From Pseudomonadota bacterium (GTDB lineage: Bacteria > Desulfobacterota > Desulfovibrionia > Desulfovibrionales > Desulfovibrionaceae), in assembly GCA_018817515.1 (NCBI GenBank), contig JAHIUD010000091.1, positions 1 to 36,596 on the forward strand: DNA of 36,596 nucleotides, written 5' to 3'. How positions within the stretch are numbered: the first letter of the stretch is position 1; every line of letters begins with the position of its first letter. The position numbers and the translations under genes are program-made. Positions 26,163 to 33,584 of the stretch are shown in pieces. The notes beneath the pieces were generated by a model. That model did no database searches and had not been told where the DNA came from. It saw only the letters and a list, made by a program, of their open reading frames with translations.

Positions 26163-26753
26163 TTAGGCGGCCTGTTTGCTGCGTTTGAGGAAGTTGGCCA
26201 GAAGCTTGGGCCCGTCCGGGGTCAGGATGGACTCCGGGTGGAACTGCACGCCGCTCCAGGGCCGGTCGGTATAACACATGCCCATGACTTCACCCTCCTT
26301 GGTCTTGGCCGTCACGCGCAGCTTTTCCGGCGCCTCGTGGGCCAGCACCAAGAGCGAATGGTAGCGGCAGACCTCGAACGGGTTGTCCAGGCCCTCGAAG
26401 ACATCCGTGCCGTCGTGCTCCACCGGGCTCGTCTTGCCGTGCATGATGCGGTCCGCCCGGACAACGCTGGCCCCGGCGAAGTGGCCCAGGGTCTGGTGGC
26501 CCAGGCACACGCCCAGGGTGGGCACGGCCATGCCGGTCTTCTCCAGCAGGGCCAGGAACTTCAGGCAGTTGCCCGCGTTCTCCGGGCGGCTGGGTCCGGG
26601 CGAGAGGCACACGCGGGAGAGGCCCGCCACGAAGGCCGGGTCGAGCAGCTCGGCGCGGTCGTTTCGCAGCACCACGGGGTCGGCCCCGAGCTGCTGGAAG
26701 GCCTGCACCAGATTGAAGGTGAAGGAGTCGAAGTTATCGATCAGCAAAAACAT
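26163..26753 (-). CDS. trpG: Anthranilate synthase glutamine amidotransferase subunit
   Basis: The protein has 196 residues. MFLLIDNFDSFTFNLVQ, the oxyanion SPGPSRPENAG, the nucleophile elbow GVCLGHQTLGH (Cys) and the His-Glu pair in VQFHPESILT mark a class I amidotransferase. It supplies ammonia to TrpE. The ATG at 26753 is preceded by AAGGGGG; a TTG two codons upstream is less likely. The gene starts 20 bases inside the end of trpE, so the two subunits are translationally coupled, which suits a 1:1 complex. Confidence 0.95.
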   Translation of the reverse strand: MFLLIDNFDSFTFNLVQAFQQLGADPVVLRNDRAELLDPAFVAGLSRVCLSPGPSRPENAGNCLKFLALLEKTGMAVPTLGVCLGHQTLGHFAGASVVRADRIMHGKTSPVEHDGTDVFEGLDNPFEVCRYHSLLVLAHEAPEKLRVTAKTKEGEVMGMCYTDRPWSGVQFHPESILTPDGPKLLANFLKRSKQAA

Positions 26754-28161
26754 CGCCAACCCCCTTGGAGGATAAAATCTCGCGGATGATGCGGGCCTTG
26801 TTGTTGCATTCCAGCCATTCCATTTCCGGGTCGGAGTCGTACACCAGCCCGGCCCCGGCCTGCCAGTTGCACACGCCGTCGCGCATCCACATGCTGCGGA
26901 TGGTGATGCCCGTGCCCACGTTGACCGGGCCCTTGCCCACGCCCAGCCAGCCCATGGCCCCGGCGTAGGGGCCGCGCTCGCGCTGCTCCACCCGGGCGAT
27001 GGTCTCCATGGCCCAGATCTTGGGCGCGCCCGCCACGGTGCCCGCCGGGAAGGTGGACTGGAGCACGTCGATGGCGTCCAGGCCGTCCTTCAGGTCGGCC
27101 TCCACGTAGCTTGTCAGGTGCATGACGTGGGAGAAGCGCTCCACGCACATGAACTTGACCACCTCAACGCTGCCCGGCGTGGCGATGCGGCCCAGGTCGT
27201 TGCGGCCCAGGTCCACCAGCATGACGTGCTCGGCGCGCTCCTTGGGATCGGCCAGAAGCTCCTTCTCGAAGGTCGCGTCCTGGGCCTCTGTTGCGCCGCG
27301 CGGACGTGTTCCGGCGATGGGCCGGACTTCCAGCCTGCCCGCCTCGCACTTGACCATCATCTCCGGCGAGCTGCCCACCAGGGTCTCGTCCTCGAAGCGC
27401 ATGAAGAACATGAAGGGCGAGGGGTTGGCCTGCTTGAGCCGCCGGTAGACCCCGAAAGGCTCGCCGGAGAACGGGGTGGCGAAGCGCACCGAGAACACGA
27501 GCTGGATGCCCTCGCCCTCGGTGATCAGGCGCTTGGCCTCGCGCACCTGCTCCATGTAGGCCTCGCGCCCGGGCGTTGCGGTGGGCTCCTCGGTCTTGAG
27601 CTCAAAGCCGCTGGACTTGCCCAGCTTTGCGGGCTTGGGCCCGCCCCTGCCGTCGCTGCCCTTTTCGTCCAGGGAGAGGTAGCAGCAGCGCGCGCGCAGG
27701 TGGTCGTAGAGCACCACCTGGCCGGGCAGCACCAGGCGCGCCTCGGCCTTTTCCGGGGGCATGCAGGCGGCCAGCTTGGGCTCCAGCATGCCGCCCACGG
27801 AGTAGCCCAGGTAGCCCAGCATGGAGCGGGTGATGGCGGGCAGGGGCTCCTTCAGCGCGGGCTGGTCGATCTCGATGGCGCGCAGAAGTCCGCGCACGCC
27901 TTCCATGTAGTCGCGGCCCTCAAACTCGCGCAGGGACTCCAGGCGCGGATCGCGGATGTTGAGCGCGAGCTTGCCGTCCTTGGGCTCGGCCAGGAGGCGG
28001 AAGTCCCAGGCGATGAGGCTGTAGCGTCCCAGGCGGCCGTCCACTTCGGCGCTTTCCAGCAGGATGCCGGGCTCGTCGCCCACCAGGCCCAGGTACAGGC
28101 TGATGGGCGTCTGCACGTCGGCCGGGAGCCATTTCCCGTAATGCTTCAGGCGAATTTCCAT
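26734..28161 (-). CDS. trpE: Anthranilate synthase component I
   Basis: This 475-residue protein has the chorismate-binding core RPIAGTRPRGAT, LLADPKERAEHVMLVDLGRN, TFPAGTVAGAPKIWAME and GAGLVYDSDPEMEW. The N-terminal LLESAEVDGRLGRYSLI stretch matches the usual Trp feedback site (LLES), so product inhibition is likely. It converts chorismate to anthranilate with TrpG. The ATG at 28161 has GGAGG six bases upstream. The 92 bases before it contain the attenuator described separately. Confidence 0.97.
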   Translation of the reverse strand: MEIRLKHYGKWLPADVQTPISLYLGLVGDEPGILLESAEVDGRLGRYSLIAWDFRLLAEPKDGKLALNIRDPRLESLREFEGRDYMEGVRGLLRAIEIDQPALKEPLPAITRSMLGYLGYSVGGMLEPKLAACMPPEKAEARLVLPGQVVLYDHLRARCCYLSLDEKGSDGRGGPKPAKLGKSSGFELKTEEPTATPGREAYMEQVREAKRLITEGEGIQLVFSVRFATPFSGEPFGVYRRLKQANPSPFMFFMRFEDETLVGSSPEMMVKCEAGRLEVRPIAGTRPRGATEAQDATFEKELLADPKERAEHVMLVDLGRNDLGRIATPGSVEVVKFMCVERFSHVMHLTSYVEADLKDGLDAIDVLQSTFPAGTVAGAPKIWAMETIARVEQRERGPYAGAMGWLGVGKGPVNVGTGITIRSMWMRDGVCNWQAGAGLVYDSDPEMEWLECNNKARIIREILSSKGVGDVFADR

Positions 28162-28179
28162 TGTTTCCTCCGTATCTAG

Positions 28180-28277
28180 AAAAAAAGCCGCGACCCAGTG
28201 CGGGACGCGGCATACACTTCGTCAAACTTCGCCCCAGGGCGAAAGCCGCGTCCCTATGCCTTGTCGCGCCACCACCA
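28180..28277 (-). promoter_or_regulatory. Tryptophan attenuator with the tyrA 3' end as leader peptide
   Basis: On the minus strand three Trp codons (28277-28269) are followed by Arg-Asp-Lys-Ala and TAG (28256-28254). GGGACGCGGC begins at the last base of that stop (28254-28245) and is fully complementary to GCCGCGTCCC at 28211-28202. The same segment can instead pair with GGGTCGCGGC (28196-28187; nine of ten pairs, loop GCACT), followed by seven Ts (28186-28180). The first pairing is an antiterminator and the second an intrinsic terminator; they exclude each other. A small hairpin (TTCGCC-CTGG-GGCGAA) lies between the arms. A ribosome at the stop would cover the first arm; one stalled at the Trp codons would not. 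Confidence 0.85.
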
Positions 28278-29039
28278 GGAGGCCCTGGCGGAGAGCAGGT
28301 CGAGATCGCCCCCGGCGGCGATGTCCAGGTAGGCCGTGAACTGCCGCACGGTCTCCTGCATGAAGGGGTTGTCCTCGCTGATGAGCTGGAAGAGCTCACG
28401 GTCTTGGGTGAGCATCTTGCGCGCGGCTTCGAGCCTGCGCTCAAAGGACGGGGTGAGGAATTTCTCGATGCCCGGCACCTGGCGCGCCGCTGCCAGGTAG
28501 GCCACGGTGGTGATGAAATTCAGGCCCTGCACGCAGGCCATGGCCCGGTCATGCTCCTCGGCGGTGCTGTCAAAGGGCGAGAACCCGGCGCGGGCGAACA
28601 AGCGCGACACGGCCCCGGCGGCATCGCCGTTGGCGTTTTCGCGCCCCGGAGTCACGGCCACCCTGGGCTCGAAGCCGTCCGGGATCACCGGGCCGAAAAG
28701 CGGATGCGTGCCCACCACGGGCCCTGCGTACGCGCCGAGCATCTGGCCCAGCGGGTGCACCTTGACCGAGCAGACGTCGGCCAGGATGGCGCCCGGCTCC
28801 AGGGCGGGGGCCAGGGTCCGGGCCACGTCGCCCATGGCCGTCACCGGCACGGACAAAATGACCAGTTGGGCTCCGGCAAGGGCCGCCTTGATGGCGTCGC
28901 CCGTGGCGTCCGGGTCGTAGGGCCGGTCCAGGGTGGCCACGTCGAGCCCGGCCTTGTGGAAGGCGCGCACGAAGAGCGCCCCCATCTGGCCCCGCGCGCC
29001 CACGATGGCGACCCGCGTTATGTCCTGCCCTGGCTTCAT
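28254..29039 (-). CDS. tyrA: Prephenate dehydrogenase ending in Trp-Trp-Trp
   Basis: The product has 261 residues. The NAD-binding start VAIVGARGQMGALFVRAF, LVILSVPVTAMGDVA, ILADVCSVKVHPL and GTHPLFGPVIPDGFE fit a TyrA of the prephenate-dehydrogenase type, which makes 4-hydroxyphenylpyruvate for tyrosine. ATG 29039 follows AAGGA, five bases after the aroA stop. The C-terminus reads SARASWWWRDKA. The three Trp codons lie exactly where a leader-peptide stall site is expected for the trpE attenuator. They may be there for regulation rather than catalysis, which is my inference. Confidence 0.93.
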   Translation of the reverse strand: MKPGQDITRVAIVGARGQMGALFVRAFHKAGLDVATLDRPYDPDATGDAIKAALAGAQLVILSVPVTAMGDVARTLAPALEPGAILADVCSVKVHPLGQMLGAYAGPVVGTHPLFGPVIPDGFEPRVAVTPGRENANGDAAGAVSRLFARAGFSPFDSTAEEHDRAMACVQGLNFITTVAYLAAARQVPGIEKFLTPSFERRLEAARKMLTQDRELFQLISEDNPFMQETVRQFTAYLDIAAGGDLDLLSARASWWWRDKA

Positions 29040-32555: not shown

Positions 32556-33359
32556 CTATTCCTTGCCCTTGAGCATTTCCATGACCTCGTCCACGTCCAT
32601 GTCGTCATGCACGACCTTGGACAGGGCCTGGGTCAACAGCGCCGGGTTCTTGTGCTGGAAGATGTTGCGGCCGACGGACAGGCCCGCGCCGCCCGCGCTG
32701 ATGGAGTCGTGGACCATCTGCAGGAATGCCTTGGTGCTGTCGAGCTTGGGGCCGCCGGCGATGACCACGGGCACGCAGCAGGCGTCGACCACATGGCCGA
32801 AGGTGTCGATGTCGCCGGTGTAGGGCACCTTGACCACGTCCGCGCCGAGTTCCACGCCCACGCGGGCGCAGTGGGCCACGATCTCGGCGTCGAACTCGCT
32901 TTTGACCTTGGGGCCGCGGGCGTAGACCATGGCCAGCACCGGAATGCCCCAGCTCTGGGCGATGCTCGTCACCTGGCCGAAGTCGGTGAGCATCTTGGCC
33001 TCGCTCTCGTCGCCCAGGTTCACGTGCACGCTCACTGCGTCCGCGCCGAGGCGGATGGCGTCTTCAACAGTTCCGACGAGGGTCTTGGCGTTGGGGAAGG
33101 GGGAGAGGGTGGTGCTGGCGGAGAGGTGGACGATAAGCCCGATGTCTTTGCCCTGTGTGCGGTGTCCGCATCTGACCAGGCCCTTGTGCATGAGCACTGC
33201 GTTGGCGCCGCCCTCGACCACCGCGCCCACGGCCTCGCGCATGTCCACGATGCCTGCGATGGGCCCCACTGTGGTGCCGTGGTCCATGGGCACGATGACG
33301 GTGCGTTTTGTGTTGCGGTTGAAGATGCGTTCGAGCCGGATGGCTTTTCCAAGATGCAT
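32556..33359 (-). CDS. 2-Amino-3,7-dideoxy-D-threo-hept-6-ulosonate synthase (ADH synthase)
   Basis: The 267-residue protein has the class I aldolase pattern of the AroA'/DhnA family: [57 protein letters not shown], and the likely Schiff-base lysine in [12 protein letters not shown], then VVIAGGPK. It opens the alternative, DAHP-independent route into the shikimate pathway described in methanogens and, from memory, in Desulfovibrio. ATG 33359 has AAGGAGA eight bases upstream; extensions upstream would run into the leader. It is the first structural gene of the supraoperon. Confidence 0.93.
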
Positions 33360-33425
33360 GGTGTCTCTCCTTGTCGTCGGTGCGGTTGCGCCTCCTGGCG
33401 GCTTTGGGCTTTCTTCCGGCGGTGG

Positions 33426-33517
33426 AAACAAAAGAAGGGCCGCCGGCTTTCGCCTGCGGCCCTTCCTGAAGAGGCTTTGGTTAACGCTTGGTCGTCAACA
33501 AACCTCTCCCCGGCCGC
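33426..33517 (-). promoter_or_regulatory. Attenuator (terminator/antiterminator) of the aromatic supraoperon
   Basis: The terminator has GAAGGGCCGC (33465-33456) paired with GCGGCCCTTC (33443-33434), an inner GGC-GAAA-GCC, then TTTTGTTT (33433-33426). The competing structure pairs GCGGCC (33517-33512) with GGCCGC (33461-33456) and AGAGGTTTG (33507-33499) with CAAAGCCTCT (33479-33470, one bulge). The second pairing takes away the left arm of the terminator. Its 5' side lies in the leader ORF just after the aromatic codons. This is a classical leader-peptide attenuator by layout. Confidence 0.85.
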
Positions 33518-33584
33518 AAGCGCAGCTAAACCAATAATACCAGTACTGGCAAAAAGAGGTATTGTTGGCGGCGAGTAGGTTCAT
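33495..33584 (-). CDS. Aromatic leader peptide (29 codons)
   Basis: A short ORF encodes a 29-residue peptide whose middle reads SFCQYWYYWFSCAC. Seven of nine residues from Phe11 to Phe19 are Phe, Tyr or Trp (two Phe, three Tyr, two Trp). It starts at ATG 33584, within two or three bases of the predicted transcription start, and lacks a Shine-Dalgarno site, so the mRNA may be leaderless. Its stop (33497-33495) lies between the two strands of the antiterminator. Scarcity of any of the three aromatic amino acids should stall the ribosome and allow read-through. Confidence 0.87.
   Translation of the reverse strand: MNLLAANNTSFCQYWYYWFSCACGRGEVC

Follow-up and report, generated by a model that had tools for sequence, protein, structure and literature searches.

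The 3' end of tyrA as a probable leader for attenuation of the trp genes in Desulfovibrionales

The junction between tyrA and trpE in Desulfovibrionales is very probably a ribosome-mediated transcription attenuator, in which the 3' end of the full-length tyrA gene plays the part of the leader peptide. The earlier note on the DNA studied here had proposed this role for the complete TyrA frame. Comparison of sequences supports it through the anatomy of the junction, the conservation of its geometry across the order, the covariation of its arms, a constant spacing between the Trp codons and the first arm, and short Trp-rich leaders found where trpE is detached from tyrA.

The switch would work as follows. 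With ample Trp-tRNA, the ribosome translating tyrA would reach the stop codon and cover arm 1. Arm 2 would then be left to arm 3, the terminator would form and RNA polymerase would halt before trpE. With scarce Trp-tRNA, the ribosome would come to a halt at the Trp codons, some 15 nt short of arm 1. The latter, being free, would capture arm 2 once it is made, and the polymerase would continue into trpE and the following trp genes. We infer the ribosome stalling, the kinetic capture, the Trp-specific response and also the working of a first, aromatic tier that is described below.

Anatomy of the junction in the window

The window, by which we mean the whole stretch of DNA analysed (36,596 nucleotides), carries on its minus strand an operon with Pfam matches for aldolase, dehydroquinate synthase II, pheA, aroA, tyrA, trpE, trpD, trpC, trpF, trpB and trpA; a PALP match is taken as trpB. 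The closest named relative as judged by TyrA is Humidesulfovibrio sp. Ess09-03 (L035), with 89% identity. The features of the junction are these:

28254..29039, minus strand: tyrA (prephenate dehydrogenase, 261 aa), the proposed leader reading frame, by family match
28277..28269, minus strand: three tandem Trp codons TGG TGG TGG, the proposed sensing codons, by direct reading and conservation
28254..28245, minus strand: arm 1 GGGACGCGGC, left arm of the antiterminator, sharing the last base of the tyrA stop, by reading and by covariation with arm 2
28227..28244, minus strand: small hairpin UUUCGCC-CUGG-GGCGAAG between arms 1 and 2, by folding
28211..28202, minus strand: arm 2 GCCGCGTCCC, partner of arm 1 (antiterminator) or of arm 3 (terminator), by reading and covariation
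28201..28197, minus strand: terminator loop, by reading
28196..28187, minus strand: arm 3 GGGTCGCGGC of the terminator, by reading and covariation
28186..28180, minus strand: seven-T run of the intrinsic terminator, by reading
28171..28167, minus strand: trpE ribosome-binding site GGAGG, 8 nt past the T run, by reading
26734..28161, minus strand: trpE (ATG 28161..28159), first of the regulated tryptophan genes, by Pfam

Direct reading confirms the TGG run, the arms, the seven Ts, the GGAGG and the trpE start just where the earlier note had placed them. Behind the Trp run tyrA continues CGC GAC AAG GCA TAG (stop at 28256..28254), so that the protein ends in WWWRDKA, and 14 nt separate the last Trp codon from arm 1. 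The arm at the stop codon had been called fully complementary to the left arm of the terminator, and the pairing of arms 1 and 2 is indeed Watson-Crick at all ten positions; arms 2 and 3 pair at 9 of 10, with a single T.T mismatch. In a comparison with 200 dinucleotide shuffles, the fold of 28290..28162 beats 199 (z -3.4). The small hairpin is possibly a pause hairpin for RNA polymerase.

A more ordinary device might be considered, namely an intrinsic terminator that lowers trp expression or simply ends the tyrA transcript, with trpE having a promoter of its own and arm 1 being incidental. In favour of this are the strength of the terminator and generic scans in which the region does not stand out (the junction terminator is absent from the 14 matches of a generic terminator scan of the window); besides, some Pseudodesulfovibrio have up to 864 nt between the two genes, which would be room enough for a promoter. 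In the window, however, only 25 nt lie between the terminator stem and the trpE start, which leaves little room for a separate trp promoter. Together with the compensatory changes in arm 1 and the rarity of such an arm at control terminators, both given in the next section, this makes the ordinary terminator highly improbable.

Tryptophan operons elsewhere use a TRAP-like protein, a T-box or a Trp riboswitch, and one of these trans-acting sensors could in principle control the terminator. A TRAP-regulated leader has about 11 G/UAG repeats near its terminator. We give this explanation hardly any credence: a search with 4227 Rfam models, leader and T-box families among them, gave no match in the window at the gathering score, and the spacing rule described below refers to the Trp codons.

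Conservation, spacing and covariation

We searched 199 genomes of the family, 176 of which gave a TyrA match, and 150 of the order (TyrA in 139). The 174 tyrA loci that were read come from 130 of the 176 family genomes, from 40 of the 50 genomes with a match in five further families and from four named contigs; 16 named contigs resembling copies of genomes already read and 14 loci from outside the order were left out before counting. In these six families of Desulfovibrionales, trpE begins within 900 nt after tyrA in 149 of the 174 loci, and a terminator lies between the tyrA stop and trpE in 112 of the 149. A script found 110 of these terminators; two were recognized by eye, one with a poor T run (L025) and one with an imperfect stem (L027).

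The longest Trp run within the last 50 residues of TyrA is three in 105 of the 112 terminator-bearing loci, four in five and two in two. The 37 adjacent loci that have no terminator show runs of three (11 loci), two (25) and zero (one), and the 25 loci in which tyrA and trpE are not adjacent have runs of three (16), two (5) and one (4). In matching genomes of the phylum outside the order, the TyrA match extends no further than about residue 239, and residue 236 is the last one covered by the two best curated TyrA models. Hence the Trp-bearing tail looks specific to Desulfovibrionales.

The duplex of arm 1 and arm 2 was found with RNAduplex and compared with dinucleotide shuffles in 108 distinct junction sequences. 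It reaches p<0.05 in 95 of them and p<0.1 in 104. For calibration we took 78 other strong terminators in the same loci, some of which are reverse strands of junction hairpins; 16 of them belong to aromatic leaders, and 3 of the remaining 62 reach p<0.05. The earlier note had asked for an alignment of related junctions, and had named relatives that keep the terminator but lack the Trp codons or the arm as the cases that would speak against it. Trp codons, complementary arm and terminator turn out to co-occur across the order: none of the 112 junction terminators stands without a Trp run of at least two, and the arm beats 90% of shuffles in 104 of the 108 distinct junctions.

Where arm 1 lies is informative. 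Its distance from the Trp run averages 15.0 nt (SD 2.7, range 7-22) over the 108 distinct sequences, as against -8.4 nt (SD 8.7, range -27 to +10) from the stop codon; between groups, the SD of the distance is 1.7 nt to the Trp codons versus 7.7 nt to the stop. In many species arm 1 is within tyrA, before the stop; the genus of the window, genus g8 and most of genus g5 have it at or after the stop. A device that depends on the stop codon alone would be expected to keep its distance from the stop, and the junction is unlike this in having arm 1 fixed to the Trp run.

Both pairings covary. Among 31 aligned sequences, 96.1% of the cells in the pairing of arms 1 and 2 are paired, with two-sided changes at 5 of 10 pairs; the corresponding values for arms 2 and 3 are 91.3% and 4 of 10. 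None of 500 shuffles, in which relatedness remains, reaches the covariation score for either pairing. When the pairing partners are slid in the same alignment, the paired share falls to 38-50%.

On the tree, WWW changes in the same direction as the attenuator in 2.5 of four supported pairs on average and in the opposite direction in none, the four pairs being too few independent contrasts for significance.

Tryptophan codons, enzyme and ribosome

The Trp residues have a role in the protein as well. In the window they are the only three Trp codons among the 261 of tyrA, all at its 3' end. All of 60 selected TyrA proteins have W256, and W257 is conserved in at least 90% of them; of the 174 TyrA, 169 carry two or more Trp in a row. 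In a structure predicted by AlphaFold2 (mean pLDDT 95) a confidently modelled helix ends with WWW, and the terminal Trp residues are probably structural. Since WW is conserved as protein and WWW is kept also where there is no attenuator, the codons were probably co-opted. We think that the enzyme had its Trp residues first, that the RNA switch was built behind them, and that regulation has kept the third Trp and the spacing. The idea of the earlier note that these codons are a regulatory sensor stands in so far as arm 1 keeps its distance from them; that they exist for regulation alone does not agree with the invariant W256 and with WWW in loci that have no attenuator.

The position of the ribosome was modelled by folding for the 108 distinct junctions, on the assumption that its footprint covers 13 nt counted from the A-site codon. 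Before arm 3 is made, arm 2 is predicted to be paired upstream at a mean of 78% when the ribosome is at the third Trp codon and 33% when it is at the stop; with no ribosome near, the value is 77%. The shift exceeds 0.2 in the predicted direction in 102 junctions and in the opposite direction in none. The model, with its assumed footprint, thus agrees with the geometry proposed earlier, in which a ribosome at the stop masks arm 1 and a ribosome at the Trp codons does not. At equilibrium, the predicted probability of the terminator in the window is 0.14 with the ribosome at the Trp codons and 0.85 at the stop; the means over the 108 junctions are 0.81 and 0.94. Since equilibrium generally favours the terminator at either ribosome position, the choice would have to be kinetic and fall during transcription.

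A pairing of arm 1 with upstream sequence, of the kind that protects the terminator when no ribosome is near, reaches p<0.05 in only 5 of the 108 junctions. Hence a ribosome stalled further upstream in tyrA, or absent from there, should also open the operon, unless Rho intervenes. It is for this reason that we infer, rather than read off, the specificity for Trp.

This brings us to an alternative in which attenuation is coupled to translation with no regard to the amino acid: trpE would open whenever the ribosome, for whatever cause, lags behind RNA polymerase at the tyrA 3' end, and the Trp run would be a feature of the protein only. E. coli rph-pyrE is a system of this type. There, too, a full-length enzyme gene acts as the 'leader' and its translation controls an intercistronic terminator; its attenuator, the precedent for a full-length gene in this role, was reportedly the subject of a paper by Bonekamp in 1984. 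What rph-pyrE senses is UTP, via the movement of the polymerase, and not an amino acid via codons of the upstream gene. The conservation of WW as protein and the presence of WWW in loci that have no attenuator would suit such a device, as would the missing protector hairpin, which by RNA alone lets arm 2 pair upstream in the 77% of the model with no ribosome nearby. Against it, the spacing of arm 1 is constant relative to the Trp run but not relative to the stop, and the short leader frames of detached trpE genes, described below, again share a Trp run. A further point is that the approximately 225 codons before the run are free of Trp in 102 of the 112 attenuator-bearing tyrA versus 18 of the 62 others; this depletion has the expected direction on average and, with few independent events, is not significant on the tree. 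On balance we regard attenuation blind to the amino acid as unlikely.

Two proposed tiers, detached trpE genes and related systems

The earlier note had expected the common-pathway genes upstream to stay expressed during regulation of the trp genes. This is incomplete, as a Phe/Tyr/Trp-rich leader of their own precedes them:

33495..33584, minus strand: aromatic leader peptide MNLLAANNTSFCQYWYYWFSCACGRGEVC, ahead of the whole operon, the proposed first attenuation tier, by reading
33430..33464, minus strand: intrinsic terminator of the first (aromatic) attenuator, by terminator scan

The mechanically called frame of the aldolase gene (33431..33359 region, minus strand) begins within this terminator; its start is likely the ATG at 33359 on the minus strand (MHLGKAIRL).

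A short frame rich in Phe, Tyr and Trp (FYFWYWF and similar) precedes the aro-phe-tyr-trp operon in all 14 other operons read (L283-L296), 12 of which are from genera that have no junction attenuator; the leader of g42 (L295) lacks Trp. For 14 of the 16 aromatic leaders in the terminator scan, a complementary arm reaches p<0.05. With such a leader ahead of the whole operon, attenuation looks two-tiered, and the simplest reading of the sequences would be a gate for aromatics in general, followed by one for tryptophan. The first would control the common, phe and tyr genes, and the tail of tyrA would control the trp genes alone. Such a two-tier logic would suit a branching pathway encoded in one long operon, where all aromatics are weighed first and Trp second.

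Published data touch on this arrangement at two points. A 2005 study of TyrA tabulates a putative attenuator for the supraoperon of D. vulgaris, which it does not place at the tyrA-trpE junction (PMC1173090). According to tabulated RNA-seq of Desulfovibrio hydrothermalis (now Maridesulfovibrio hydrothermalis), trpE, trpG and trpD are down at 10 versus 0.1 MPa (log2 -2.7, -2.7 and -2.6), there is no entry for the genes from aldolase to tyrA or for trpC and trpF, a blank meaning not significant, and at 26 versus 0.1 MPa the decrease extends over the cluster from aldolase to trpF (PMC4162548). The decrease of trpEGD would fit a breakpoint between tyrA and trpE, if this species has the same junction; the stimulus was pressure and not Trp.

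The junction resembles E. coli trpL in its tandem Trp codons in a translated frame, in mutually exclusive antiterminator and terminator, in the U run and in having trpE next. The placement of the first arm is alike too, as in trpL it is about 14-15 nt behind the Trp codons. The E. coli leader is a dedicated short peptide behind a promoter; in Desulfovibrionales, by contrast, the leader frame is a complete tyrA (261 codons in the window) inside an operon, no protector (1:2) pairing was found at the junction, and the junction is a second tier behind an aromatic leader. In the E. coli trp operon the ribosome may leave the stop codon before the terminator has been completed, and this causes a basal read-through of 10-15% (PMC1183508). 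Hence a leaky gate may be expected at the tyrA-trpE junction as well.

In Chlamydia trachomatis, three Trp codons within the full-length protein YtgCR make downstream transcription responsive to Trp (PMC7755916). There, stalling promotes termination within a repressor gene and affects the trp genes in trans, whereas stalling in tyrA would prevent termination in cis. The repressor TrpR is, according to one comparative study, conserved in gammaproteobacteria and absent in other classes (PMC5343134). Among titles and opening parts of abstracts in the open-licence literature we found no description of an attenuator at a tyrA-trpE junction.

What happens when trpE is not behind tyrA? We read 420 nt before trpE in 24 loci in which the two genes are apart, or not known to be together, and for which the DNA examined contains no tyrA; L263, a control with adjacent tyrA, is not among them. 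In 22 of the 24 a short frame with WW or WWW, followed by a terminator, lies 144-339 nt before trpE. Within the 420 nt, L281 has no such frame and L276 has only a doubtful one at -402. Arm 1 reaches p<0.05 in 16 of the 22 and falls short of significance in L274, L279, L280 (g20), L269, L277 and L240. The distance from Trp codons to arm averages 13.2 nt (SD 3.0, range 4-16), with outliers at 4 nt (L264) and 7 nt (L279) behind the W run. Thus a switch of apparently the same kind comes with a classical leader where trpE is on its own.

L237 is an example in which the likeness to the junction is close. Its leader MNVFSNTISNSFKGWWWRIQLRGGDVRA has WWW, arm 1 at 15 nt, a terminator and then trpE. It differs, as do other short leaders of Desulfovibrio and relatives, in being a classical-looking short frame with tyrA elsewhere; in L237 a promoter-like TTGACA lies upstream. 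A strict pattern for the short-leader motif is found in 13 of 61 genomes of genus g40.

The short leaders may be cut-off ends of tyrA. In a FastTree tree of TyrA, g40, g27, g42, g13, g7 and g4 share a clade (local support 99) with the attenuator-bearing groups g22 and g38, and the TyrA tails of these two groups are like WWWRSHTERGGVRPS; the short leader of L268 ends in YRWWWRVVDVKGGVRPA. When the DNA of eight leaders was compared with the best tyrA tail, L269, L270 and L239 scored above all 60 shuffles and L268, L237, L240, L278 and L265 did not. This is no more than suggestive of a descent of the short leaders from tyrA tails.

Textbook attenuation relies on a dispensable short peptide for sensing. 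Here, a needed enzyme would carry the sensing codons, and its tail would be partly written by RNA pairing, so that one sequence is under selection both as protein and as RNA. With slightly more confidence than doubt, we propose that throughout the order the trp operon has its tryptophan sensor in the tail of a biosynthetic enzyme and not in a leader peptide, with a general aromatic attenuator ahead of it in which it is nested; that the RNA switch shapes the tail of the enzyme; and that the classical-looking short trp leaders found in Desulfovibrio and its relatives derive from tyrA ends that were cut off, a route by which leader peptides are born. Short leader peptides may have originated in this way. 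A further implication is that attenuators at gene junctions are probably missed when leaders are sought only behind promoters.

Some genomes gave no trpE match at the threshold of the respective search, 1e-30 or 1e-60: G012 (g13), G042 (g42), G240 and G230 (f4), G003 (g4), G008 (g9), and G039 and G086 (g39). They may belong to tryptophan auxotrophs, and some of the genomes are incomplete. One in-frame TGA lies inside the trpE match of L273 (G063, g34).

A separate observation concerns the interval between tyrA and trpE. In genus g5 the stretch from the tyrA stop to trpE is enlarged to 531-864 nt in L021, L023 and L070. A conserved frame of 25 codons lies between terminator and trpE in 12 of the 16 loci read from genus g5 and named Pseudodesulfovibrio (L017, L018, L022, L024, L026, L027, L028, L031, L032, L048, L073 and L074). 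It has a ribosome site of its own and an in-frame UGA at codon 5, and reads M-x-x-T-UGA-[KR]-x-x-EN[RQ]KKxKGWxVIP... Beyond the UGA, synonymous codon differences prevail (505 versus 285 over pairs; 236/148/644 by codon position). One of the peptides, searched against NCBIfam, gave no match. A tRNA-Sec match above the cut-off was present in all 12 genomes searched for these loci versus 5 of 14 control genomes. Judging from the sequence, the frame is possibly a tiny selenoprotein, or a UGA-controlled peptide that would be produced only upon read-through into trp.
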